Assembly: GCA_964034945.1 (NCBI GenBank)
Contig: OZ035961.1
Location: 76,510,188-76,574,187, forward strand
Length of the DNA stretch: 64,000 nt
Reading direction: 5' to 3'
Source of the DNA: Chrysopilus asiliformis
Taxonomy: Eukaryota > Arthropoda > Insecta > Diptera > Rhagionidae
Positions 2,946-63,887 of the stretch are shown here, in pieces (the first letter of the stretch is position 1; each line of letters begins with the position of its first letter). Under the pieces are notes generated by a model, which saw only the letters and a program-made list of their open reading frames with translations, did no database searches and was not told the origin of the DNA. Both the position numbers and the translations under genes were made by a program.

Positions 2946-3960
2946 ACACATGGATCAATAAGTCCCGAGACTAACCCAGAGATGACGCTCGTAGTAAACC
3001 AGTAACCACGTCTTTCTAGAGTACTAACCTTTGCTTGAAACGTGTCAAAATTTTAAGTCGATCGGACCAGAAACAGCTGAGTTATCGAGGTTGGAGTAAA
3101 GTCGTTTTGTAGTTTGTTTAAAAAATGGAAAAAACCGAGTTTCGTGTTCTGATAAAACATTGTTTTTTAATGGGTAAAAACACCGTGCAAGCGAAACAAT
3201 GGATTGAAAAATGTTACCCGGACTCTTGTCCATCAAAAGCAACGATTTGTCGGTGGTTTGCCGAGTTTAAACGTGGTCGTACCGACACAAATGACGCGGA
3301 ACGCTCGGGTAGACCTGTGGAAGCCGTTACACCGGAAAATGTGAGTGAAGTGACAAAAATTATAATGAAAGATCGTAAAGTGAAGCTCCGTGAGATTGCT
3401 GAGATAACACAGATATCATATGGAAGTGCATTTACTATCCTTCATGAAAAATTGAGCATGAAAAAGGTTTTTTCCAAGTGGGTGCCGCGATTGCTTTCGA
3501 TGGAACAAAAACAGCAACGAGTCGATGATTCAGAAAGCTGTTTATCGCTATTTACTCGCAATAAAAAAGATTTCTTGAAAAAAAATCCTTTTTCACCAAG
3601 ACAATGCACCCTGCCACAAGTCGATGAAAACAATGGCAAAATTGAACGAATTGGGCTTTCATCTGCTTCCCCACCCCCCATACTCGCCAGATTTAGCCCC
3701 CAGTGACTACTGGCTCTTTGCTGATCTTAAAAAAATGCTCCAGGGAAAAAGATTTGGCTCAAATGAGGAGGTCATCGCTGAAACTGAAGCTTATTTTGAA
3801 GCGAAAGATAATTTTTTTTATAAACATGGTATTGAAAAATTGGAAAAGCGTTGGAACGATTGTATCACCCTAAAAGGTGATTATATTGATGAATAAAAAA
3901 AAATTTGGCAAAAAAAATGTTGTTTTCATTGTTAGTCTCGGGACTTATTGATCCATGTGT
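2946..3960 (+). mobile_element. Internally deleted mariner with intact terminal repeats
   Basis: Perfect inverted ends are present: ACACATGGATCAATAAGTCC at 2946, mirrored up to 3960. With the flanking TA target duplication (2944-2945 and 3961-3962) the match is 32 bp. The 1,015-bp body encodes a mariner transposase lacking its centre. Perfect ends point to a fairly recent insertion. It disrupts the older mariner at 2868-4782. Confidence 0.9.
3125..3896 (+). pseudogene. Mariner transposase with central deletion
   Basis: From the ATG at 3125 the frame encodes the mariner N-terminal helix-turn-helix region and linker (MEKTEFRVLIKHCF..., WFAEFKRG, ERSGRPVEAVTPENV, KWVPRLLS) up to KKDFLKK at about 3570. 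The segment that should carry the first catalytic Asp is gone. After the deletion the frame shifts: HQDNAPCHKSMKTMAKLNELGF (second Asp) begins near 3597, followed by PYSPDLAPSDYW (third Asp) and a C-terminus ending at 3896. Mariner transposases are about 345 residues; this copy cannot make a functional one. It could supply binding-domain fragments only. Confidence 0.9.
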
Positions 3961-30792: not shown

Positions 30793-33700
30793 TTACATAA
30801 ACATATCATCATAATCATGTGGGGGCCTGATATGATCTGGATTTGGATTGCCTCTTCGCAGAGGATCAAAATCTGGTGGACCAAAAGGATCGAACCTGGC
30901 ACCAAATGGAGCTCTGCAAAAAGTGTTTCAAATTAATTTTACTTTTAATTGTGATCAGTTTTAAAGAGTAATATTAATTTCATAAAGTAAAGATATTTCA
31001 AAAGTCAAATTCCCTTAGCAAGGCTTTTAACATATTTATGGTGGGTTTCATGAAACTTTTAGCGACCACTAAATCGAGTGAGCACACTCTTTTTGCTGGA
31101 AATTAGCAAGCCAACCTGATTTAGCGGTCACTAAAACTATCGTAAAACCCGCCATTAATCTTAAGAAAATATTTTATGATTCCAAGTACCTGGAAACGCT
31201 TCACAGAAACTTTTTATAATTGGAACAAATTTCCCATTTTATAGGAAAATTCATTTTAATTTAAAATTACGTAGCTGTATTCAATGCACTTACCTAGGAA
31301 GTCCCGGTCCAAATGGCGCAGGCGGGGCAAATGCTTGTGGAGGCTGGAATAACATTCCCCCACCACCTCTGCCTAAGGGATCAAGGTCACCCCTGCCAAC
31401 TTCAAACAATGGATCTCGACTAAAAATAATAATCGAAAACATTGAAAAAAAATCCAAACTGGCAAGCCTAATATACCATATATGGTTGAATAGAAAAGTG
31501 CACATCGATCAAAATATTCAAAAAAACATAACAAAAGCTATAATTGCCAATGGTGATTTAATTGAACGGCGTATCAAAATTTCATTTGAATTCAAATTTT
31601 CCAATAAGATTTTTTTAAAACTTGTTCCAATCGGATTTTGATGTATGGGAGTTTTATGTAGAATCATATTCTAAATAACTTTTGTTCTTGGACTTTTTTG
31701 ATAAGATGCACAGTTTTTGAGATATTCGCGAAAAACATTTTCGTTCCTGTGGGGGGTACCCCCCTAATAGTCCATTTTTGTCCATTAACGAACTTAGCCT
31801 CGAATTTTACGAAAAACGGATCTGCGCAAAATTTCAAGTCTCTAGCTCAATCCATGCGCCCGCAATCCGCGCCACAGACAAACAGACAGACGGACAGACA
31901 GACAGACGGACAGACAGACAGACGGACAGACAGACAGACGGACAGACAGACAGACGGACAGACAGACAGACGGACAGACAGACAGACGGACAGACAGACA
32001 GACGGACAGACAGACAGACGGACAGACAGACAGACGGACAGACGGACGGACATGCAAAATTCAATTTTGTGTGATGACGGGATCTTGGCGTTACAAACGG
32101 TAAGGCAAAGTTAATATACCCTTTGGTTTCACCATACGGGTATAAAAATGCATAATATTTTATTTCCTTTGAATTTGGTTATATGCCTTTTTCACAAAAG
32201 CACATTCTTTTCGAGAAATTGTCAAAATACTGTATGTATGTATGAGAGGCACCCGATATAGCTAACGTCACTTTTCCAAAAGTTGAAAGAAAACTACGAT
32301 TTTCGTAAGACTCATTTACAAAAAAAATTCAAATCGCTAGATCAACGGGTTCTCGAGTTATTTAAGATACAACGGACAGACCGACAGACAGATGCACGGA
32401 CATCCTCATAATTTTGCCTGAAACGGATTTCGTACTAATCAGAAAGGTTCTAGTTGCCCTTCGAGTCGGTCTGCGTCACGAATACAATACTATAGCAAAG
32501 GAAAGTAAAGGGTCTCTAAAATACAGAAGCAAAGCTACGGCATAGACAGCCTAGACAGCGTCTAGTAAATTGTCAACCCGTTAAGATAATACGTTTTTAA
32601 AAAATTCGAGTTTTTCAATTTCTATTTAAAAGCTACCTAAACAGTATTGTTCTGTCTTTAACTTTTCTGGCGAACGAAGCGAATTCAGATTTTTGTTGTT
32701 TTTATGGGAAACTTTGAAATTAGCTTTTTGGTTTTTTTAAATATTTTCTTATAGGTCCAAATCTAAAAAAATATAACATAAACCTTTTAATATGGAAATA
32801 TTGCTTATACTATGTTCACACCGACGCAAAATTACGTAATTTTGAAGATTTTCGTAATTTTGAACGAAATCTTGCTCGAAATCACGAGATTTTCAGTACA
32901 TTAACCTGTTTTCAAAATCACTAAAAGTATGCAATTTCCACAAAATTACGAACGAAATCAAGCAAAAACAATGTATACAACCCTGCATCACTTATTCAGC
33001 TCTCTTCAGCACATCAGTTTTGACATTTGTGCTGCATTGGAAAAACGGAAATATAAGAAAAAGAAACCGTGTTCCGCACGCGAAGAGGATATATTTATAA
33101 ACCTGTGGTCTGAAAAAATAAACAACCTACGCGGGACAAAAAAAAAATGGACCTGTTTTTGATGCGATTAGATATGAAATGGAAAATAATTGTTTATTTT
33201 CATTACAGATAATTTCCATTTTCGTCTAAAGTGTCTAATTCTGTTTGCACATATTTCATCGATGTTTTGAATTGTATTATTCATCATATTACTAAAATTC
33301 ATAGTAATCCTACACGAACTTCCTCGATCCATTTTTGAACTAACGTAGTTGAAATGTCAAACAAAATTACCTTAATCTCTGTGTGAACACTTTGGTTTAA
33401 GATCTAAATCATTTCGCAAAATTACGTGATTTTGCGTCGGTGTGAACATAGTATTACTCTTTGAAGGTTAATAAAAAATGAAATCAATTAAATTGCTCAA
33501 AAAATAGAGAAGAAAATTAAAAATTCCTTGCGATATACACAAATTTAAACAGTCCCTATTCCGGGAAAAGTAAGAATTGACCACACTCTAGCTAGAAAAG
33601 AAAGGTATTCAAGAGACCTGCTCGTTCATTGTAAAGTCAGTAAAGCCTTTTGCTTCATTTTATTTGTCATTAAGGGTATGTATGCCGTACTTTGCGATGA

Positions 33701-50600: not shown

Positions 50601-53600
50601 TTCCTGCTAAATGCAATTAATAAAATACCTTGGGAATTCTTCGCCATTATGGTATTGTCTTTAATATCATAATTCCCTCCAACCAAAATAATTTCAAAGG
50701 TCTCCGTTGCCATCACGCACAAATTTATTCATTTTGTTTCTCAATTTTAATAATTTACTTGTTCTTGTCGAACTTGTTCATTAAATCACTCACAATGAAA
50801 ATAACGACTTAACCTCAAATAGGTTTTCAGTACTGTCAAAGTTAACCAAATCGCGTTCCAAAATGCCCGAGTAAAGTTTACTTTTCTCAACTCTGCTATT
50901 GAGCAAAGTTGAAAAAGTTAACTTTGACAGCTCAACTGTGGTGTTTTGGAACGCAAGTATAGTTTACTTTGCGTTAACCGTATATGTTTTGGAACGACTT
51001 TCAGTTAACCGTGGTCGAACGCGGTTAACCGTGGTTAGTAATGGAACGCGGCCCTGGGCGTGCGCGGTCTTCTTAACCTAACCTAACCTATCAGTCAGTC
51101 AGCTTTACCAATGTTATTGCAAGAACAAGTTATTTAGGATATGATTCTACATAAAACATACACAAAAATCCGATTGGAATAAATTTTAAAAAAATCTTAT
51201 TGGAAAATTTGAATTCAAATGAAATTTTGATACAACTGTTCGCCGTTCACTTAAATCACCATACGGGTTTTCAATAATTGCCAGATCGGCAATTATAGCT
51301 TTTGTTCTGTGTTTGGAACAATTAAACATAACAAAAGCTATAATTGCCAATCTTTTTGATCAGATGCACCGTTTTTGACATATTCGCAAAAAACGTTTTC
51401 GTTCGTATGAGGGGTACCCCCCCTAATGGTCCATTTTTGCCCATTAACGAACTGAGCCTTGCATTTTACGAAAAACGAATCTGCATAAAACGGACGGACG
51501 GACATGCAAAATTAAATTTTTTTATCATACTAAACACACTGGTGTAATTCATTTTTTTGTGTGATAACGGGATCTTGGCGTTACAAACGGTAAGGCAAAT
51601 CTAATATACCCTTTGGTTTCACCTAACGGGTATAAAAAGTACAAATTAGAGTTAAATAAAAAGTGTAATCTTTGTTATATACATAATAGAGGTATTCATA
51701 AAAAATTTCAACTGGGCTGTTATTGTCATAAAAGCATACTTATTGATATAACTTTACTCCAAACCGAAAAAAAACTGAAAACATAATTTTATACTAAAAC
51801 TGAAAACATGATGGGGATATTCACAATTACCAAAGATCATGTTGTATAATATAAAGATATGTAGAGTCAAACAATCGTTCTTCACAGCCAGAATCAGATT
51901 TTGACTATGAAAAATGACTGTTCGATTCAATATATCTTTATATTATACATGATCTTTGTTATTTCTTTAGCTATTATAGTGGCAAAATAATACTAAATGA
52001 TAAAGTTTAACTTTAAACTGAAAGATACTCAAATTTCCACTCACATTTTTTTACTTGATTGGTTTTTGTTTTTCGAAAATTGGAAACCACTCTAATGATT
52101 TTCACTAATCACAAAATGACTTAAAACAAAACACTAGGTACTACAGATTCTAGTCACTTAAACACTTTTGTACAAAAAACTTGTCAAATATGAGTAGATT
52201 TTCAAGCTTAGAGTAAGTTCGGGTATTGTGGTACACCTTCATTTGTTTTCATAATAAATCACTCGTTTTAAAAGCAATCATGTTAGAATTTCGCATACGA
52301 CACCTCCAGAGGCTTGCCTATAAAATTCCACAACAATGTTACCAATTATAAACATAAAAGCAAAATTATGATCAAAAAAGTACACTAACTGAAAAAAAAG
52401 TGCTTCAAAAAATTGGCGGGTAATGTGGTATACTGTTTCTTCCATACAAATATTTAAGGCGGGTAATGTGGAATACTGTTTCATCCATTCAAATATTAAA
52501 TATTTGTATGGAAAAAATAGTATGCCACATTAGCCGTTCTCACCATGACAAACCAAAAAAATGATTTCTTAGTCTAATTCGCTTGAATCCAAAAATTTTC
52601 TTTTCAAAAATTAAATGTGTTGTCTAAATAATCGTTCACTGATTCACAGTTAAAAAAACAACTTAAAATTGGCTTTCGAGATTCATTTGAATGTGGAGAC
52701 AATAAAATGTTGATTGTGCTCAAAAACGTTTTTCAGAAAATTCCGATATAACCTGATAAACCATGGACTTGTCAACACCAACAATGGTTGCAGAATTTCA
52801 CAAAAAACAGTATTGTATGTTTGATCTTGCGATGCGGCATCTCATATCCGAGAAATGATGGGGTACCACATTACCCGCCTATACCACAATACCCGAACTT
52901 ACTCTACTAGGTTTTATTTTTTGCTTATTTCATATATTAACCCAAATTTCATATATTACACCAACCCATTAAAATATAATAAATTATGATAAGGCTGCAA
53001 AAAATAATGCCATATATTTTGTTGTTGTTTACCAAAACTTTAACAATTGGTATTATTTTACAACGATACCAGCGCAGTTGTTGCATCTAAGTAAAATAGA
53101 TCAAATAAAAAAACTTAAACAAAAATTAAGTTTAATTTGGTAAACCAAAATTCAGTTGACATGCAAATTTATGAAATTCATTGAAAAAATATTTATCTAG
53201 TAAAAGAAACCCACCTGACTGTTCCAGTTTGTTCTCTGGCCTTTTTGAGTACTAATTTATAACATTTTATAGCTTTGTCAAAATTATTCTGTAGAATATG
53301 AATACCAGCCATTCCTACAGTCATATTAAAAAAAATATCTTTTAAAAAACTGAATAGCAAGTATTTGTTTACCATTTATACTGGAGACGATGGTTCGCAA
53401 ATGGGTTTTGCATTCTATTTCGTTGGTGCTTTTTAGATGTTCTAGCAGTTCATTTGGTTGCAGTAACTTCTTAATGATAGAATGATCAGACTTTTGAAAT
53501 AGCATTGGAATTGTACATTCTTGCCGAAGACGAAGCAAAGGTTTTAACACCTGAAATATTATTATATTAATTGTTTTCCTTACATATTTCTTCAAATTGG

Positions 53601-56600
53601 GTTTTTACCAATTTTAAAGTCTTCGCATCGATGTTTGTTATAGATTCTGTAAAAATTGCTAACTTCCTAATATTTTCATCAAATGCAAACTCGTAGCTGA
53701 TGTGCTGAGTACGATAGAAAAGTGCTTGCACATCACACATCCTTACATAGTGAACTTGCTCGGTTTGCGGAGGTATTCCGAGCTCGCTCAATACAGAGTT
53801 CTTGCTGGTACGCCACATAAGTTTACCTAAAATATTTAATAATGGCTGCGTATCGCCATGTGTGTATAATCTCTGCAAAATTTTCCATTCGTATATATCG
53901 CTAAACGGATAAACATCAAGGAATTCGAATATTCCCCGAATATCGTTGAGAGATCTTTGAATTGGAGTTCCGGTGACTGCCCACCGATGAATTGCTTTTA
54001 TGAAATAAAAAAAAAGATTATATTGTCGTGTCTTATGTAAATATGAACCATTTTAAAGGGCAACAAATGACACTCTTCAGTGAGTAAGAAGACGTCAGCG
54101 AATATTCTTTGGAAGAATTTTACAATTGATTCATTCGCGAAAGAATGAATTACACGACATAGACTTGATTTCATTCTTTTCGTGAGAGAATTAAAACTAT
54201 TTATTCCCAACATCAAAAATTCGCGAATGACAAAGAATGAAAAAGGATATTCTATTTCTTTGTTATATACAGTAATCCCCCGACTCACGAAGGCTCGTTT
54301 TACGAAATTTCGAAGTTACGGACATCATTCGTAAAGTACAAAATTTGTTATACGAATGAAAAATTCGCTATTACGAACAAAACTTAAAAAAAAAATCGTG
54401 TGAAAAATAAAATACACATGCACCTACAAAGGATTTCCATTATTTACAACAACACATTTAGTTATCAACATACAAAATTTAGCTGCCAAGCGTTTTAATT
54501 CCACGTGCTTAATAGCTGAATGTTTAGTTTTTTTGAGTTTGTATGGTTTGAGGTTGCACTAAGTCTATTGGCTTACACAATTCAATTTGGGAAATCCACT
54601 AAAACAATAAATTATTTTTCTTTTATTTTCTAATCACATTGTTTTAAATGTTTCTAAAAATTTTGGGTACGCATCTATGTATTTTTAGTACCAACTTATA
54701 CTAATATGGATCTCGTTTTACGAATATTTTCAATCACTGGAACGTATCTATTTATTTTCAATAAAATGACATACTAATATTGGGCTCGCTATACGAATAT
54801 TCAATATACGTACACTTTCACAGAACGTATCCTGTTCGTAAAGCGGGGGATTACTGTATGTTGTTTTACGGTTAAAGTGAAAATTATAGAGCGTTGTATC
54901 GTCTATAATTTTGCACTCCGAGTTTTCTAAAGAAAAAAACGTGGGAAAAAAATCAAAAAAACGCAAAATTTTAAGATATTAATGCCAATATCTCCAGAAC
55001 AAATATGGCTAATTGTAAAAAGGGCGTAGTGGGGAATCATGTCCCAGATTTGGCATCTATCTGAGATTTGAAATCGCAAAAAACTATATAACAGTATATC
55101 TTGATAACGATTTGAGATACACATGCTTATTCACAAAAGCTATTATTGCTTGTTAATACCCATAACAATTGTTTAAATAGAAATCGGTATTCACATTTCA
55201 CTTTGCTTGCTATGAACTTTCGATAATATTGTTAAGCTAAAAATTGTCAAATAAAACCGTATTCAGAGTGCACTATTGCTTGTTAGAAATGGTTAACAGT
55301 GTTGTTACGATTAGAAAAATAAATTTTAGTTGTTTGGGAAGAAATATTTTTTTTTTCAATCAAAAAAATTGATTTTATAATTCCAATTATGGACATTGTG
55401 GCGGAAGAAGAACGGTAAGATAAAAGGATGTGATTTAAAGCCATGAATTATCCATTGATACAGTAAAACACACTTAAATGCAACACGCTTAAATGCAAAG
55501 CTCGTGTAATTGCACGCAAAATTTGTGCCTGGAGGATTTTAAAGCATTTTTCATATGAATATATACACACGCTTAATTGCAATACTTACTTAAATGCAAC
55601 CATTTTCATACTGAAAAAGTATAAATTACATGAAATTTTACACGCTTAAATGCACATGTGCAAAAATAAAATGTAATCACACAAAAAAAAAGTGATTTTT
55701 GTTATTTTTATGTGATAAAATGAATTCTTAATTAGATTCTTTGTTTTTGTGTAGCCTAATTGAATTTAAATGTTTATTCCAGGAATATTAAAGTTGCATG
55801 TTTATATTTGACTCGCATAATTGCACATTAATGTGTATTACTCCGTGCTTCCGTGCTACGGATAAATGCAAAACACGGATAAATGCACATTAAATTCTGC
55901 GAAATTCGATGTGCATTTAAGCGTGTTCTACTGTGTTGCTTTTTTAAAGACATTATGTTGGATTACCACGTGGATTACCAAGTCAAGTTCTTCGCGATAC
56001 CAGCGATCCGTTTTCCATAGAAGAAAACAGTTTTAAAAAATATTTATCGTCTCCCCGCAATGCAATACAACAATCCGCGAATGCAATACAACTGCAACTA
56101 TTAAAATAATTCACAAAACTGTTGCCATAACAACACAACGAACATTTTTAACGAAACTTTTTAACAAGCAAAATTGTGATTACCATTTTCTTTATGGATT
56201 GCTATGAAATTTATTGTTACTTAACAATATTGTTAACTAACAATAAATTTGTGAATAAGCATGACAGTGTTCCAGTGAAAGGCAAAGTTGTAGAAAATTT
56301 TCACAGTTAGCTATTTGTAATATAAAAGATGTTCTAACTAACGAAGTTCAATTCGTTGAGTGTTGCCTATAGCTCCGTTATTTATTTTAACCTGCTGGCG
56401 GAGGTACCAGCAATTTAACAGGCGTCTAAAAAGACTGCCAGAATGTTAATGAGAAAAAGACGAACTGCTCAATTAAAGCGTAAGTTTAATTCTGAATTCT
56501 TCCTAGAGCTAATACGGCTTTTATAGGCGCCGCTTTCTTATTTACAATATTGCACATAATTCTACAAGTGCCCTAATTCTTAAATACATAATTACTTTCT

Positions 56601-59449
56601 TAAATGTTAAATAAACTTTTTCTCACGGTGCACTTTGTTGTCTTAGGTTCGAAATCATAAATTATCAAATCGTCAATTGTGTCATCCGAATCAAATTTCA
56701 TCTTCGATTTGAATGCACCTGACTACCGTATGCTTGTGCATTGAGTGGACTTTATGTTGAGTCATGAAGTTCACAGCACGAGTAACCCATTGCATGCATA
56801 CTTATGGTCATGTCATAATTTGTCATCGATTGTTTGTTTTGTTTTTAATTTACGATTTCGATACCATTACACCCTCATCCTCAAGATAAAATTTATGAAT
56901 GAAATGTGTTACAATATTTCATGAAAAAATTTTAGCTTAACCTAATAAATGTATTAATTAAATGTTGAATAATCATAAATTTCTTATCTGGTAATTGTAT
57001 TCATTAATTGTCTTATAAGGAATTTTAATTATATATGTATTTCTTTAAGTTATTGTTGTGAACTAATGTTTCTACACCATCTTTATCTATGATACTATTT
57101 ACACCTTCTCTTTTAATTAATTTATATGGTCCTTTATATGGACTGTTTCTTTTGGTATTATTAAAAGATCTTAAAAATACTAAATCACCTCCTTTGAAAT
57201 TAGATGGATTTGAATTCTTTTGGTTTTTTATTCTTTCATTTTTAGCACTTTCAATGAGACTCTGTGCTTTGTCGAGAGCTCTTTTTAATCGCATTTTTAG
57301 TTCTACTGCGTAATTTTCGATATTATAGATTGGTTTATTATTCATTATAGTGTCGTGTGGTAAGTATGGCAATTTTCCAAATATGAGTTCATAAGGAGAA
57401 TATTCTGTATCTATATGTGGTGTTATATTATATGCAAATGTATAGTATGGTATCCATTTGTCCCATTCATGATCTGTAGAGAATGATAACAGGTATTCAT
57501 TTAAGACTCTGTGATTTCGTTCTATAGATCCTAATGTTTCATGATGATATGGTGTTCCAAATGTCTGTTTGGTATCTAAAAGTTTGCATATATTTGTAAA
57601 TAGTTCGTTTTTAAACTCTGTTCCGTTGTCGGATTTCAAAACTTTGAACATTCCATATTTAAGAATAAATTGTTCGACTAGGGTTTTTGCAACTGTACGT
57701 GCATCTTTAGATTCCATTGGATGTGCTATTATGTATTTTGTTAATTCACATTGAATTGTTAATATATATCGATAGTCATTTGATATTCTTAGAGGTCCTA
57801 CAGTGTCGATTGCAATTGTTTCAAAACTTGTTGTAGGTGTGTCTGTTTTTATCATTTTTTCTTTTGTATGTTTTGTTATTTTATTTTTGGTACATAAAGT
57901 GCAATGATTTATGTATTTCTTTACCATTTTTCTCATGTTTTTCCAAATATATCGCTGTTTTAATTTTAATATCGTTCTTCTAATTCCTGTATGTCCTCCG
58001 TGTGGTGTTATATGAAAATTCTTTATCAATTCTATTTGTTCGTCTTTGTTCTTTATTTGAATTGGAGCTTTATATATCATTATATTCAATTTCTTTATAT
58101 TCTCTTGCTGCAGCATATTAAATTCATATTTAAATCTTTCTTTTTCAATATATTCGAATATTTTATCATTTTCTTCTAGCGCTAGTTCTTTTATATTCTT
58201 TTTTATCATTAAGTCTTGCAGTTTCTCCATAGTCAAAACTAGTTTTGCAGGATTATCACTGTAAGTTACTATTACTTCATCTTTCATTATACGTACGTTT
58301 ATTTTTTCCTTTTTGTCGACATTAAATCTTAATTTCATTACATTTTTGACGTCAGATATAGATGTGCAGTCCCAAATATGAAGTTGATCAGGCTTCGTTG
58401 GTTCTTTACACTCTTTATTTTTATTATTATTCATGCTCCTTATATTTTCATTTTTATTCTTCATGCTCCTTGTAATTGCGAACAGTTTTTTCGGTGAATT
58501 TTCATCTGTTTCAGGAATTAGTTTTTTCAATGTTTCTGTATTTATCGGTATGCGTGATAGTGTATCTGCGTTTGTATTTATTTTACCCTTTTTATAGACA
58601 ATTTCAAAATCATATTCTGATAATTCTAAACGAATTCTTGTTAGTTTCGATGATGGATTTTTATGTGAGAATAGTGAAACAAGGGGTCTGTGGTCAGTTA
58701 CTACAATAAATTTTTTTCCGTAAAGATATGGTCTGAAAAATTTTATGCCCCAATGTATAGCTAAAAGTTCCTTTTCGATTACTGATTTATTAAGATCATG
58801 CTTTTGCAATGATTTGCTAGCATAAGATATAGGTAAGTCAGAACCTATTTCACCTTGTGATAGAATTGCGCCTAAAGCATAATTTGAAGCGTCAGTGGTT
58901 ACAATGAAAGGTTTTGTAAAATCTGGATATTGTAATATCTCTGAGCTTATTAATTTTTGCTTTAATAATTCGAATGCTTTTTGACATTCGTCAGTCCAGT
59001 TGAAAGTATGATTCTTCTTTAGGAGATCGTTTAGATCTTTTGCAATTTTTGCGAAATCTTTAATAAAACGTCTGTAGTAATTGCAGAGTGCAACAAATCT
59101 TCTGACCTCGTCAGCATTTTTAGGAATAGGATAATTTTCTATAACTTCATACTTATTCTGAGAAATGTCTATTAAAATTGGGGATGGGTTTAATTGCCGT
59201 TTCCATAATGAAATTTGCTATTTTATTTGTAAGTTTTCCTTTTCGTTGGATGTTATTTTCTTCCACAGTGTTATCTTTTTCTTCACTATCAGTGTAAGTG
59301 AAGCTGATGTGTTGCTTTCTGTTATAAATTTATCAAAACTTTTTATAATTTCTTTTGCTAATGATAAGTTTAAAATTTCCTATTCGGGGTTTTTTTTGTA
59401 TATATTGTCTAATAATATTTGGAATCCATCCATCTAGATTATGAAAGTA

Positions 59450-59483
<34 letters not shown>

Positions 59484-62400
59484 CTTCAGCTTTTTGATTT
59501 TATTTCAAATTTTAGCGGATTTTTATTTTACATTTTAATCTTCGATTTTCAAATTGTTTTCTTGTTTTTACATGATTTCTTTTCATTTCACTTTACGTTT
59601 AAAAACTACATTTTGTATACATATGGAATATATTTGACTTGTTTCTTTTATTTGCTTTCGTTTCTTTTATAAATTTAAGTCAATTCATTAATATTCATTT
59701 TTTTATATCCATTTTTTTTTAAATTCATTTTTTTTTAAATTCATTTTTTTTTTATTTTGTATTTCATTCAATTATTTTGTTTTGTTGTAAATCTTATTTT
59801 AAATAACATCTCAGAAATAATTTTTTTTGTTTGTAATTATATAATAATAATAATATTAATTATTTTTATTTATTATTTTGTTAAATTAATTTTTTAATTC
59901 GGTGCTGTTTGGATTTTACTTTTTCTTATTTTTAGCTCCTTTGGCATCTGTGTTATTTTTCCATCTTGGTTTCTTCTTTGGCTGTCCTTCGTCCTTATTC
60001 TCTTCGCCTTCGTCCTCTTCGTCGGTGTCTTCGCCCATATCGACAACTTCGACTCCGTCCTTTACATTTGTCCCAAGGATGTGAACGGGAACAACGCCTG
60101 CATTAGTTTGAATGTCAATGATGTGTCGTAGAATTCGATGTCGGGATTAACGGATCTTGTTTCACCCGGTTTCAATACAGCAATTGAAATTTTTATTTCC
60201 TAGTCTTTATCTGTTTGCACCTCAACTACATTGAATTCCTCGTCTTTCGCACCGGCCACCAGTAAAATCATTTTTGTGGTCAGCTTTTGGCCGCGGGGAA
60301 AGTCTTCATCGTTGCAACGAACATTCCAGTCCATTTCGCGTGGTTGGATCGTCCGCAGGATCGTCCGCAGGATCGCCATGTAATATATAAGATCTGGCAG
60401 GATCGCCATGTAATATATGAGATGTTCTAACTAACGAAGTTCAATTCGTTGAGTGTTGCCTATAGCTCCGTTATTTATTTTAACCTGCTGGCGGAGGTAC
60501 CAGCAATTTAACAGGCGTCTAAAAAGACTGCCAGAATGTTAATGAGAAAAAGACGAACTGCTCAATTAAAGCGTAAGTTTAATTCTGAATTCTTCCTAGA
60601 GCTAATACGGCTTTTATAGGCGCCGCTTTCTTATTTACAATATTGCACATAATTCTACAAGTGCCCTAATTCTTAAATACATAATTACTTTCTTAAATGT
60701 TAAATAAACTTTTTCTCACGGTGCACTTTGTTGTCTTAGGTTCGAAATCATAAATTATCAAATCGTCAATTGTGTCATCCGAATCAAATTTCATCTTCGA
60801 TTTGAATGCACCTGACTACCGTATGCTTGTGCATTGAGTGGACTTTATGTTGAGTCATGAAGTTCACAGCACGAGTAACCCATTGCATGCATACTTATGG
60901 TCATGTCATAATTTGTCATCGATTGTTTGTTTTGTTTTTAATTTACGATTTCGATACCATTACATATTGTTTGTTCTCGAGATATTAGCATTATTATCTG
61001 AAAATTTTGCGTTTTTTTGATAACCAATAGTTTTTTTTAGAAAAGTCGCAGTGCGAAATTATTGACGATACAACGCACTACAATTTTGCCTTTAACCGTA
61101 AAATAAAATCATGTGCTGTTCAGAAATTTTCTGTGTCATTTTATTTTTCTCTGTAATACACCCAACTCTTTTTCCCATGGTAGATACTTTTCTCATAAAA
61201 TTGTGTAAAAAAACGTGTAAAAAAATATATGTTTCTTATAGTAAAATTGGAAATACGGTTCATGTTATCCGAAAACCCTCCAAGCTTAAATAAGGAACTA
61301 TATTTATATACGAATGATATATGTATACATATGAATTTTTTTTGGGCAATAAAACCTAAGATACATGCATAGATAAAAAAAAACAAATCACAATAAAAAA
61401 AACATTTCATAGATAAAAAAACAAATTTGGTAAACCAAAATTAAGAATACACAGAAAACTTAAAACAGAAATAAAGAAATTCAATATTTTATTAATGTAA
61501 TACAGTGGAGTCTCGGTTACGTGAACACTTCATTATATGAACAATCCAGTAACATGGATCGCCTCGCTGTCTGCATTGAGTATCTTACAACGTGAACAAA
61601 CAAGAAAACTGGTACTCTATAACGTGAACAAAAATTACACTAACTGGAGTTCCATATGCGGAATACAACTTCTTTTTCTTCTGTATATGTATGGAATATA
61701 AATGTAATGAATAGTCTTCTGTAGAGAGTTGAAATCTTTACTCGTGCTGTGCAATGGGCCGAAGATCGAAACCTTGAATGGGATACTGTATTGGTGCTCA
61801 AGAAATTAAAAGAACAAGCAGTAATGGAAACCACTAGCAAAACACAAAAACAAACAAAAATTACAGAATACTTTTTGTAATGCGTCACTTTTTATATTGA
61901 ATACAGAAATTTCTTTCTTTTATAATAATGTAAGCATGTTTTTTTTTATTAAAATTTTCTTGAAAAATTTCACCTCTTGAACGTTAACAAATTCACAAAT
62001 GTAAACAAGCCATGTCTGATGTGTGTTCACATTACCGAGACTCCCCTGTATTTAGTTACATAATAATGAGATTATTACTTTAAAATCGTGTTAAAAATTT
62101 TCCAAAAAAGGAAAACTTTTTTGAACCTTGTAACTAGAAATTCGTGTAAAAAAAGAGTTGGGTGTATTTTCCAAAAAAAATCGATTACTACCTAGTTCCA
62201 GGAGTTTAGGCTAGGTAAGCAAAATAATGAAGACGAATACTCTTTAAAACAAAACGCAACATTTTCATGACTCGCGAATTTTTGATGTGTGGAATAAATG
62301 GTTTTCATTCTCTCGCGAAAAGAATGTTTCCATAAACATTCCCGGATCTAATATTATCGAAAGAATGTTTTACCCAAAAATTCATTCGCGAATTAAAAAG

Positions 62401-63887
62401 AATGAAAAAGAATGTATTTCTCCGCATCCTGGTTTTTATATGAATGTAAACTCAAAACTCGAAAGACAGTATATGATCATGCAAAGTAAAAAAAATATTT
62501 TTGAAATCGAAATTACCTGGCAAAATTTTAACCATCTGCGCTGCGTTGGTGCTACTTGATTCTACCATTTGAGCCTCATCTAAAACAACTCGCCACCATC
62601 GAAGTAAAAGAATAGGGGACGGCATTCGCATATAGCGTTTATCATTTCTGAATCGGTATTCTTTTATATTCGTGTGGTGGATTTCTCTTTGTAGGACATT
62701 ATATGAAGTCAACACAACGTCATAACAATTCAATTCTTCGGGACTAATCCAACCCGATGCTGACAATCCTTCATAATTGAGAACCTTAAACGACTCAGAG
62801 ACGTGTTTTTGAATTTCTGACATCCACTGCGATTTGATAGCAAAAGGAGAGACAATTATTGTTGATCCGCTTTCCATCAATGGGGTTGTTTCCCAACATT
62901 CTGGACATTTATGCTTTTTTTCGTCATGTTGTTCTTGCGAGTGTTTTCGAACACACGAGACATGCTGAAGTCGCCCACAGTCGCAGCATTCAATGAGCTT
63001 TTTGTTTTCCAGTCTATCGACACAAATGCAATGCACAAGTTCGACCTTCAACTTTTTAGCGGGAGGCGGCTCTATCTTATGATTAAATATTTCTCTTGAA
63101 TGGAGTGGTGGTTTCCTTTTGTTATGAAGTATTAAGGCTAGCATTTCCACGGTCTTCCCTAGTCCCATTTCATCTGCTAGTATTCCCCCTGATGGCAACA
63201 AATAATCGGCTGGTTTCGAATCAAACAACTTTAGCGTCATGGAATGCAAATAAAAATCTTGATCTGGAATATCTTCACAAGACATTTTTAAAAAGTTCCT
63301 AGATATCGTTTCGGGAACAATTTCTCGATTAATCGCCCATCTTACTGCCGCTGATTGATACGGCCGCAAGATAGGTTTGAGGTGTGCATGTTGTACATTC
63401 TCCGGAACATTTGGATCCAACTGGTCATGCACACGGTGAAATTGGGGCAGGGATTGATACAAGAGATTGGTAATCTGGAATAATTTTAATGCTGAATTGT
63501 GCGAATTTGTCGCGACTTCCGTGCCTGTACTGAACACATTTTCCGACATTTTAAACACGAAATGCAATAACCGTTCTCGTATTTGTGGCCTGGTGATCCG
63601 AAGATTTTCTGTCGGCATAAAGAAAAGCCCAAGATATTCTCGTCCATCGCGCTCAGTAAATATCTTTAACTGGAAATCTTTATTTTTTACAACATCTGAA
63701 ACAGAATTTAGTTATCAAGAGATCTATATAAATTTCAGTAATTAATACCTAACTGAATTGATGTGAAATTCGTGTTGACGAGTTTTGCAAAAATCTTTTT
63801 TTTGTATATAAATAGTTCACAGTCTGGATTTTCATCTGTTGCAACGACCGCTATTTTTCGAACACAATAGGAAAGATTAGAGCTCAT
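43825..63887 (-). CDS. SHPRH: E3 ubiquitin-protein ligase SHPRH (SNF2-PHD-RING)
   Basis: Fifteen minus-strand exons: 63749-63887, 62517-63695, 53609-53994, 53373-53550, 53215-53314, 48881-49237, 48612-48813, 48183-48551, 45143-45304, 44902-45063, 44734-44849, 44552-44678, 44255-44377, 44032-44192, 43825-43975. All are GT/AG and phases agree throughout, giving 1303 residues. The start is the ATG at 63887 ([20 protein letters not shown]). Domain order is SNF2 N-lobe with [13 protein letters not shown] (about 216-228), inserted PHD finger (about 270-313), DEAQ box (about 419), [14 protein letters not shown] (about 1068-1112) and helicase C lobe ([19 protein letters not shown]). This order is unique to SHPRH. 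Vertebrate SHPRH is about 1680 residues with a linker-histone-like domain, which I do not see here. The family promotes PCNA polyubiquitination and damage tolerance in the nucleus. Introns 2, 5 and 8 (8.5, 4.0 and 2.9 kb) are full of transposons; exon 7 could start at 48807 instead. Confidence 0.96.
44734..45063 (-). CDS. SHPRH: SHPRH exons 10-11: RING finger
   Basis: Exon 10 (44902-45063) ends with [11 protein letters not shown]. Exon 11 (44734-44849) continues [15 protein letters not shown] and [10 protein letters not shown]. Together they form a C3HC4 RING in which a 52-nt intron splits the domain just after the first zinc-binding pair. It is preceded by a long charged helix ([20 protein letters not shown]). 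Confidence 0.93.
45305..47023. other. SHPRH intron 8, left part
   Basis: AT-rich intron without recognised elements up to the hAT-like insertion at 47024. Confidence 0.4.
47024..47866 (+). mobile_element. hAT element, deleted, with perfect 8-bp target duplication
   Basis: Ends CAGAGAAGATAATTATAAGC and the inverse, flanked by GTAATGAG at 47016-47023 and 47867-47874. The 843-bp interior ends with a hAT-type transposase C-terminus. Near its centre AATTATACAAGGTCTG (about 47310) and CAGACCTGTATAATT (about 47512) form a possible nested MITE. It lies in SHPRH intron 8. Confidence 0.9.
47560..47712 (+). pseudogene. C-terminal hAT transposase fragment
   Basis: Reads [20 protein letters not shown], then [20 protein letters not shown] and ENLKQ before TAA at 47710. 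The SADVERSFS...L..RR..F..ENLK pattern is the hAT dimerisation region. The rest of the transposase is missing. Confidence 0.7.
49600..50412 (+). repeat. Repeat family R1, copy 5 (diverged, interrupted)
   Basis: Begins AAATAAACATAATAAAAGCT (compare R1 AAACATAACAAAAGCTATAA) and contains CACAATGCACCGTTT, AACTTAGCTCCATGTTTTAC and GTGCAAAATTTG. A 489-bp element then interrupts it, and TCTCTAGTTGAATTC and CCGACAGACAAACACATGAA follow. It is older than copies 1-4 and lies in SHPRH intron 5. Confidence 0.6.
49835..50323. mobile_element. Harbinger-like element with 3-bp TTG duplication
   Basis: AGGTCTGTTCGATATGAGTC and its inverse bound 489 bp, flanked by TTG. GAGTCCTGGACTTACTC recurs several times in both orientations. 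A short frame starting [20 protein letters not shown] ends at a donor-like GTAAGT. The family is inferred from TSD length and layout. Confidence 0.65.
50417..51054. mobile_element. Probable MITE
   Basis: GGGGTGCGTTCCGTTATTCC and TAATGGAACGCGGCCC are imperfect inverted ends. CAAAGTTAACTTTGACAG-type motifs and TTTTGGAACGC recur within. The target duplication is ambiguous. Confidence 0.55.
51108..51638 (+). repeat. Repeat family R1, copy 4 with inverted partial copy
   Basis: 51108-51305 is the reverse complement of the left part of R1 (CACCATACGGGTTTTCAATA then ATTGCCAGATCGGCAATTAT). It is followed at 51327 by a forward copy with an internal deletion that joins AATTGCCAATCT directly to TTTTTGATCAGATGCACC. 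The GACA tract is reduced to GGACGGACGGACATG. It lies in SHPRH intron 5. Confidence 0.8.
51831..51958. mobile_element. Small fold-back element
   Basis: CAAAGATCATGTTGTATAAT at 51831 pairs with ATTATACATGATCTTTG ending at 51958, with further pairing inward. 128 bp, no coding. Confidence 0.6.
52211..52904. mobile_element. TA-flanked MITE with repeated interior motif
   Basis: GAGTAAGTTCGGGTATTGTG and its inverse are flanked by TA (52209-52210 and 52905-52906). GCGGGTAATGTGG(T/A)ATACTG occurs twice near 52418-52470, and inverted relatives CCACATTACCCGCC occur at the right end. Layout is the same as the element at 16800-17741, though the sequences differ. Confidence 0.75.
52905..53214. other. SHPRH intron 5, end next to exon 5
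   Basis: AT-rich with no recognised element. Confidence 0.4.
54270..54856. mobile_element. Pogo-like MITE, TA target
   Basis: CAGTAATCCCCCGACTCACG and inverse GCGGGGGATTACTG, flanked by TA (54268-54269 and 54857-54858). Repeated TACGAA-containing motifs (CTCGTTTTACGAA, CTCGCTATACGAATATT) lie inside. No transposase. Confidence 0.75.
55123..56262 (+). mobile_element. Harbinger element remnant
   Basis: ATGCTTATTCACAAAAGC and inverse TTTGTGAATAAGCAT bound 1,140 bp. Near the left a frame starts MDIVAEEER before a donor-like GTAAGA. On the right about 55945-56060 encodes [25 protein letters not shown], close to the N-terminus of HARBI1-type transposases (LRD-SNPF pattern). A pogo-like MITE splits the two. 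Confidence 0.65.
55461..55933. mobile_element. Pogo-like MITE with many CTTAAATGCA motifs
   Basis: CAGTAAAACACACTTAAATG and inverse CATTTAAGCGTGTTCTACTG form the ends; the left flank is TA. The decamer-like motif (CACG)CTTAA(A/T)TGCA is repeated roughly ten times in both orientations. It is nested in the Harbinger remnant. Confidence 0.75.
56316..56871 (-). repeat. 3' LTR
   Basis: 556 bp, TGTAAT...ATTACA, adjacent to the purine-rich tract on its upstream (right) side. Confidence 0.92.
57025..59218 (-). pseudogene. Truncated Ty3/gypsy-type pol: RT thumb, RNase H, integrase
   Basis: The frame is open on the minus strand from about 59218 to TAA at 57025, without a natural start ATG. It begins with the end of RT ([28 protein letters not shown]). 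RNase H follows ([52 protein letters not shown]). The integrase has an HHCC-type zinc region ([11 protein letters not shown]...CTLCTKNK) and core acidic residues in [20 protein letters not shown] and [14 protein letters not shown]. The YxDD box of RT and everything upstream are gone. The remaining frame is intact, consistent with recent activity or recent origin. Domain order RT-RNase H-integrase marks the Ty3/gypsy group. Confidence 0.92.
59454..59483 (-). other. Poly(A) tract of the captured cDNA
   Basis: Thirty T on the plus strand (A on the sense strand), 15 nt after AATAAA. It marks the 3' end of the captured transcript and the junction with retrotransposon sequence (TATATACTTTCATAATC). 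Confidence 0.9.
59454..60340 (-). pseudogene. Captured nucleoplasmin-like (Nlp-type) cDNA inside the LTR element
   Basis: Minus-strand sequence reads [40 protein letters not shown], then an in-frame TAG. It continues with [29 protein letters not shown] and, after a one-base frameshift near 60090, [20 protein letters not shown] and an acidic tract ([16 protein letters not shown]). A lysine-rich tail [14 protein letters not shown] ends at TAA 59916-59918. The order and motifs match insect nucleoplasmin-like histone chaperones such as Drosophila Nlp. The first 15-20 residues are missing at the junction with the retrotransposon. There are no introns, and a ~430-nt 3' UTR leads to AATAAA (59499-59504) and 30 A residues (59454-59483). 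It is a processed mRNA copy that cannot encode the full protein. Confidence 0.9.
60341..60408 (-). repeat. Duplicated LTR edge and primer-binding region
   Basis: In sense, the LTR end ATTACA is followed by TGGCGATCCTGCCAGATC, a second TATATATTACATGGCGATCC, and then two GGACGATCCTGC units. The ~30-bp LTR/primer-binding junction is thus present twice. Primer-binding sites start TGG immediately after the LTR, which fits here; the tRNA is not assigned. Confidence 0.7.
60409..60964 (-). repeat. 5' LTR
   Basis: 556 bp, matching the other LTR except TG for AA at the ninth and tenth base from its left end. The sequence just inside it contains a partial second copy of the LTR edge. Confidence 0.92.
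61503..62048 (+). mobile_element. Pogo element, deleted, TA target
   Basis: CAGTGGAGTCTCGGTTACGT and inverse CATTACCGAGACTCCCCTG, flanked by TA (61501-61502 and 62049-62050). GTGAAC-containing motifs (ATAACGTGAACAAAA) repeat on the left. It keeps the transposase 3' end. Confidence 0.85.
61731..61880 (+). pseudogene. C-terminal pogo transposase with PCNA-binding-like motif
   Basis: Fifty codons: [20 protein letters not shown], then [20 protein letters not shown] and QTKITEYFL before TAA. The AVQWAE...L..LR/K pattern is the extreme C-terminus of pogo/Tigger transposases. QTKITEYF fits the PCNA-interacting (PIP) consensus QxxIxxYF described at the pogo C-terminus. All upstream coding sequence is gone. 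Confidence 0.7.
62517..63695 (-). CDS. SHPRH: SHPRH exon 2: SNF2 N-lobe with PHD finger
   Basis: This 1,179-nt exon holds the ATP-binding motif [15 protein letters not shown] and the PHD-type zinc cluster [19 protein letters not shown]...HVSC...CPECW inserted between motifs I and Ia. Further on are [27 protein letters not shown] and [12 protein letters not shown] (motif II). It ends at the donor CCAG|GTAATT. Confidence 0.95.

Follow-up and report, generated by a model that had tools for sequence, protein, structure and literature searches.

How has sequence of a host nucleoplasmin-like (Nlp) gene come to lie inside a long terminal repeat (LTR) retrotransposon, and does it travel with the element? 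The question is raised by a 64,000-nt stretch of the genome of the fly Chrysopilus asiliformis (contig OZ035961.1, positions 76,510,188 to 76,574,187; hereafter the window), which harbours such an element on its minus strand. An earlier note on this DNA had proposed the joining of packaged Nlp mRNA to an element genome. Our analyses bear out the capture of Nlp, but they add sequence of a second host gene, that of casein kinase I alpha, and a capture history that looks old and serial. The chimera very probably results from serial transduction of host RNA into a helper-dependent LTR satellite, which carries sequence of two host genes.

Repeated transposition of the chimera

We searched the 429-Mb assembly (42 contigs); C1 to C4 denote contigs, the window being located on C2, and L-numbers denote genome stretches read around individual copies. 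Searching with the LTR yielded 42 matches, of which 40 were long; 40 of its 135 candidates were scored. A nucleotide search with Nlp plus its tail gave 42 matches from 34 candidates, all scored in a first look, and the resulting census of Nlp-carrying copies is a lower bound. Nlp was read together with element sequence at 16 places, and its presence is inferred at a 17th.

Seven LTR pairs enclose Nlp, those of the window copy and of L009-L014. These seven complete chimeras share the order of their segments as well as two joins, that of LTR, primer binding site and Nlp and that of a run of A residues (A-run) with gag/pol. All seven are flanked by perfect 4-base target-site duplications (TSDs), all distinct (TATT, AACC, GAGC, ATAG, CAAG, GTAT and ATAC, by eye). 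The shared segment order and the private TSD of each copy indicate that the chimera moves as a unit: it has transposed repeatedly, with its own 4-base duplication each time. The recovery of identical junctions at several places of the genome excludes a chance association. A genome search for identical junctions with different duplications had been suggested in the earlier note as the test of a mobile unit, and these seven copies are its outcome; Nlp with a TSD of its own and junctions unique to the window, which would have pointed elsewhere, were not found.

Within the seven complete chimeras the two LTRs differ at 2, 1, 1, 1, 1, 1 and 2 positions, respectively, per 535-556 compared, with 7 additional gap columns in the L013 pair, and LTR identity among eight chimeras is 94.9-99.1%. 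Among the 18 single LTRs displayed, 16 have matching 4-base duplications by eye and two are truncated.

Nine Nlp-carrying places were read partially, four of them in another LTR family, and a tenth is known from a match and its flanks. L052 (C1:56.52M) is a member of the window group. L018 retains the end of the kinase segment, the A-run, the gag start, pol and the 3' LTR, its 5' side being severed by a tandem satellite before Nlp. Such satellites interrupt chimeras at L018 7680-9001 (5' side) and L047 1-200 (inside Nlp), and L014 has an additional foreign insertion of ~0.8 kb beside the A-run.

Architecture of the window copy

Read on the minus strand, the window copy consists of the 5' LTR, the primer site, Nlp, the casein kinase segment with its A-run and the gag 5' end, followed 3' of this gag remnant by the end of the reverse transcriptase (RT), RNase H, integrase, the purine tract and the 3' LTR. 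Its features are as follows.

56312..56315, no strand: target-site duplication TATT, left copy
56316..56871, minus: 3' LTR, TGTAAT...ATTACA, 556 nt
56872..56882, minus: polypurine tract GAGGATGAGGG, adjoining the 3' LTR, identical in all 8 paired copies displayed
57025..59156, minus: 3' part of pol (RT end, RNase H, integrase), with Pfam matches
59157..59433, minus: gag 5' end, closed by a stop where joined to the RT end
59433-59431, minus: gag start ATG
59454..59483, minus: 30-nt A-run, shorter at the matching place of the kinase gene
59484..59910, minus: casein kinase I alpha 3' end (3' untranslated region, 3'UTR), second captured host segment, with homology to C4:21.66M (L040)
59916..60339, minus: intronless coding sequence of Nlp, starting at about codon 17 and reaching the stop
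60332..60334, minus: ATG of the captured Nlp frame, GTG in the parental gene
60340..60408, minus: primer binding site TGGCGATCCTGC region, doubled with the LTR tail, then short GGACGATCC repeats
60409..60964, minus: 5' LTR, 556 nt
60965..60968, no strand: target-site duplication TATT, right copy

The ends of the element are thus as the note had described them, with matching 556-bp LTRs (554 identical positions, two mismatches), TATT on both sides and a purine tract; we find this tract next to the left LTR. In all seven complete copies the LTR is immediately followed by TGG... at the primer site, which may be complementary to tRNA-Arg. In the window copy alone among them, the LTR tail and primer site are doubled as a 30-nt tandem repeat (60367-60423), which looks like a slip of reverse transcription, perhaps an aberrant strand transfer.

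The Nlp segment derives from spliced RNA

The Nlp homology lies on the strand of the element. The broken piece in the window has a Pfam E-value of 4.7e-5, with 24.3 bits falling below the cut-off of 25.8, and the corresponding part of L014, whose Nlp segment is 99% like that of the window, reaches 8.3e-14. The L014 piece matches PDB 1nlq (Nucleoplasmin-like protein) at 2.8e-25 and, over 87 residues, shows 69% identity with the Nlp protein of a fruit fly, Bactrocera latifrons. We located the parental gene at C2:4850525-4859120, with three exons, two introns and 155 codons. The large intron between exons 2 and 3 (~7.9 kb) is missing without a scar in 15 of the 15 copies spanning the join (L047 does not cover it), indicating that Nlp was derived from spliced RNA; the comparison with the parent proposed in the note therefore supports this origin.

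Captured Nlp begins near parental codon 16-17, and most copies have an ATG at the position where the parent reads GTG. In the window, the frame is broken by a TAG at 60202-60200 and by a 1-nt deletion near 60100; the resulting frameshift is common to the window group, and the premature stop is an addition of the window copy. The same-strand, intronless Nlp cDNA of the earlier note was thus correctly recognized as to homology, strand and intron loss, but the first ~16 codons are missing and the window frame is dead. In the window lineage, Nlp now appears to be a dead passenger. An early BLAST figure of ~10% Nlp divergence between copies counted gaps and was dropped; ungapped bins are mostly 94-99% identical, with lower values in places where the alignment suffers from low-complexity sequence.

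The 3' end of casein kinase I alpha as a second host segment

The tail that follows Nlp in the window corresponds not to the 3'UTR of parental Nlp but to C4:21.66M (L040; 79% identity), where a splice-acceptor-like site precedes a terminal exon of ~54 residues and then the 3'UTR found in the chimera. This exon encodes the C-terminus of casein kinase I alpha, its translation having a PDB match to that kinase at 1.8e-12. The 3' end of this gene is the second host sequence carried, in most of the lineages read.

AATAAA and a 30-nt poly(A) had been attributed to Nlp mRNA in the note. The A-run exists, but it belongs to casein kinase I alpha sequence and no tail is shown. The kinase gene has AACAAA where the chimera has AATAAA, its A-run is short and genome-encoded, and kinase homology runs on beyond the A-run in L009, with the same extra sequence in L011-L013. 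Because the kinase gene encodes an A-run there and homology continues past it in L009, A-run and AATAAA are not evidence of an mRNA end, and an Nlp poly(A) as the 3' junction was ruled out.

Element class and autonomous relatives

The minus-strand open reading frame (ORF) at 57025-59217 has Pfam matches to RT_RNaseH (8.6e-35), Integrase_H2C2 (1.4e-16) and rve (3.2e-10), confirming the RNase H and integrase noticed earlier. RNase H precedes integrase, and almost no RT is left in the window copy; RVT_1 is found at 8.9e-33 in the relative L016, showing that RT exists in the family. The element is a non-autonomous LTR retrotransposon of the Ty3/gypsy type, to which the TG...CA LTR pairs, the short TSD of fixed length and the order of pol domains fit. 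It has no env: the pol frame stops at 57025 and the LTR edge is at 56871, leaving no room between them, and an assignment to Errantivirus or insect endogenous retroviruses fails on this point.

Two autonomous relatives of ~6.3 kb each were read in pieces, the first as L003, L004 and L016 and the second as L017. The first has a leader of ~730 nt, and both gag and the protease-RT-RNase H frame are open in its pieces. Between primer site and gag, the L003 leader holds a frame of ~128 residues (L003:1061-1444, minus strand), for which a Pfam search gave no match above the cut-off. Compared with this relative, the chimera has no leader, no protease, only a small part of gag and hardly any RT. Nlp occupies the stretch between the primer site and the gag ATG, where L003 has its leader. 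The note had placed Nlp in the position of gag, and we rejected a replacement of gag, as its 5' piece persists and the leader's place is taken instead.

LTR and 3' pol sequence is common to the chimera and a relative in which the gag and RT frames are open. In 250-nt bins, the window LTR and pol are 95-100% identical to the autonomous pieces, with 90% in the bin holding the gag-RT join, and the window LTR is 99.6% identical to that of L003. In contrast, the gag remnant is merely ~65-87% identical to the autonomous relatives, which indicates that parts of the chimera have separate histories. The loss of protease, most of gag and nearly all RT, together with the existence of a relative whose gag and RT are both open, supports helper dependence, as the note had supposed.

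Other lineages and likely order of capture

Not all lineages carry the same tail. In L041 (C3:59.21M) and L047 (C1:105.11M) Nlp is followed by the start of its own 3'UTR, and L042 (C1:72.37M) has a longer Nlp 3'UTR and a slightly longer 5' end, with LTR and pol diverged by eye. The kinase 3' end is present in the window group, in L043-L046 and in L051 (C4:42.12M), the last having an open Nlp frame of 125 codons. At four places, L043-L046, the leader and LTR tail are those of a second LTR family, the Nlp frame is open over ~106-116 codons and the kinase tail is shortened. The L044 copy, read to both ends with L053, L054 and L057, has pol pieces 70-79% identical to those of the window and an LTR pair with two mismatches in 632 nt.

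On the simplest view, Nlp would have been captured first, its 3'UTR lost next and the kinase 3' end gained thereafter, followed by spread, with exchange between lineages. Several mosaic features were observed. A 12-nt deletion of L041 recurs in L012 and L013 of the frameshifted group. The window LTR is closer to that of the autonomous copy than to that of chimera L014 (96.1%). The place at C3:58.96M belongs to the window group by the 99% match of its Nlp-tail segment and by flanking pieces, yet its LTR pieces are just 84% and 76% like those of the window. L029 was considered as a progenitor predating the capture and was rejected, being a chimera broken by other repeats, with L047 as its other half.

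Synonymous divergence (dS) between parent and copies is 0.14-0.26 (15 copies), a measure of age possibly inflated by RT errors, whereas LTR divergence within the seven window-family copies is at most 0.4%. From this contrast, the chimeric lineage looks far older than its sampled insertions.

Proposed mechanism and rival explanations

In the scenario we favour, minus-strand synthesis in particles of an autonomous relative would have left the element RNA for packaged Nlp mRNA and returned to the element near the primer site. A later, similar switch or another recombination may have swapped Nlp's own 3'UTR for the kinase 3' end. LTR satellites move in trans, and the chimera would be mobilised in this manner. 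Ongoing recombination with helper and sister RNAs could refresh the LTRs and pol, and the same process may have carried the Nlp-kinase cassette into the second LTR family.

Several points weigh against this scenario. The kinase segment lies within a single exon, making intron loss uninformative about its RNA origin. No junction read has an unambiguous mRNA poly(A) tail, the A-runs matching parental A-rich sequence. Microhomology at the switch points is unclear, with A-rich and short matches only, and old junctions may have decayed; template switching itself is a step that we infer. Lastly, in L044, the sole second-lineage copy whose two LTR ends were reached, the flanks do not form a TSD (TGGG versus AAAT, by eye), which leaves the integration of that copy itself unproven.

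An intronless Nlp with an A-run downstream could also be a processed retrocopy of the LINE type that inserted into an LTR element and then spread along with it, and its 5' truncation within the coding sequence is as compatible with such a retrocopy as with transduction. We nevertheless consider this very unlikely. No TSD around the Nlp insert was seen in the alignment of the seven copies, the end of the Nlp 3'UTR in the basal copy L042 has no poly(A), and the tail of the insert belongs to another gene. Furthermore, an L003-type leader is missing at the site rather than interrupted, with the caveat that the leader of the true progenitor may differ. Repeats are also prone to assembly errors, which could fuse unrelated sequences, but the presence of the same junctions on contigs C1-C4 with differing flanks and TSDs makes an artefact extremely improbable. 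Serial transduction of host RNA remains our preferred explanation.

Is the Nlp frame used?

Nlp might have been kept as a useful gene, its trimmed translation product aiding the element, for instance by disturbing the host Nlp/HMR complexes that restrain transposons. L041, L043-L046 and L051 have an open frame, as does L042 except for the last three codons, and an in-frame ATG arises at or beside the junction. Seven of the eight indels in the Nlp coding sequence, counted by eye, are multiples of three (+3, -3, -15, -12, -42, -69 and -30, the exception being -1; P 0.0026 against an expectation of 1/3). For the neighbouring non-coding stretch the corresponding figure is 3/14, or 6/21 if gaps close to the A-run are counted as well (Fisher P 0.005 and 0.007, respectively). 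The coding count leaves out a private L012 insertion, where the frame was already shifted, and both non-coding counts leave out pure A-run gaps. Two papers fit a useful Nlp frame, reporting that oligomer-deficient fly NLP does not bind HMR (PMC6277087) and that transposon expression rises upon loss of Hmr or Lhr (PMC8412352).

Other observations nevertheless make this use of Nlp rather unlikely. Ratios of non-synonymous to synonymous divergence (dN/dS) between copies range from 0.09 to 1.5 on few changes and are often above 0.5, and past the frameshift the differences in the old frame are almost all amino-acid-changing. Open frames are unsurprising, with probabilities of 0.23-0.40 each under random change and 0.46-0.62 with half the changes; on this account, we dropped the lack of stops as proof of selection. 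The window group went on transposing after loss of the frame. Moreover, on the presumed placement of these residues, copies read at the 5' end have no F6 and L043-L046 have no V79 region. Both residues are needed for oligomers of fly NLP according to PMC6277087. More doubtful still is the fuller proposal that an LTR satellite lineage owns a trimmed Nlp gene with the kinase 3'UTR end, shared between LTR families, whose product would counter Nlp/HMR silencing and which the window copies would have lost.

Genomic setting of the window copy

The element is inserted, in the same orientation, within an intron of a host SNF2-domain gene. The Pfam profile of this domain is split at its position 151 between two ORFs flanking the element, at 62455-63711 and 53570-54052. 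Elsewhere in the window, a frame at 3122-3706 resembles by eye a fragment of a mariner-type transposase, and a GACA-rich tandem array of 16-bp units is found at 31877-32051, with a similar array seen by eye in a repeat inside L051.

Relation to known systems and significance

Retroviruses transduce oncogenes. Crocodilian endogenous retroviruses (ERVs) have reportedly captured genes (PMC4299795). The present element resembles ERV gene capture in having host coding sequence within an animal LTR element, and overlap with the crocodilian case is possible; it differs in that its family has no env and the window copy no working host frame.

PMC5408686 and PMC13317346 treat a change of template between element RNA and a packaged host mRNA as an accepted way of capture. 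In maize, the LTR element Bs1 acquired parts of three host genes in succession (PMC13317346). Like Bs1, the present element has parts of more than one host gene, here two, but its host is a fly rather than a plant, its copies are many and belong to two or more LTR families, and in the window lineage the captured frame is lost. In metazoans, including flies, LTR-mediated retroposition copies host mRNA between LTRs by template switching, with retrocopies described as the products (PMC5408686, PMC8232201); in contrast, the present chimera kept transposing and gained a second gene and a second LTR family. The non-autonomous satellites Veju TRIM and BARE-2 (PMC13317346) kept LTR, primer binding site and polypurine tract and lost coding capacity or gained foreign sequence. 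The same three parts are retained here, with the difference that the cargo consists of identified host genes. In the literature searched, we found no report of nucleoplasmin capture by an LTR element, and a comparable animal case may exist elsewhere.

The mechanism class is known, and the unusual part is its long-lived, multi-copy animal form with two genes and two LTR families. The reviews considered treat capture by LTR elements mainly in plants and, in animals, as retrocopies. Here, both parental genes are available, and the genome displays together the stages of a first capture, a second one, a deletion and an occurrence in a further LTR family; the model of retrovirus-style transduction by ordinary retrotransposons thereby becomes directly testable. 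Set against the young LTRs, the old divergence between parent and copies suggests that the individual copies of a helper-dependent satellite can be far shorter-lived than their lineage.

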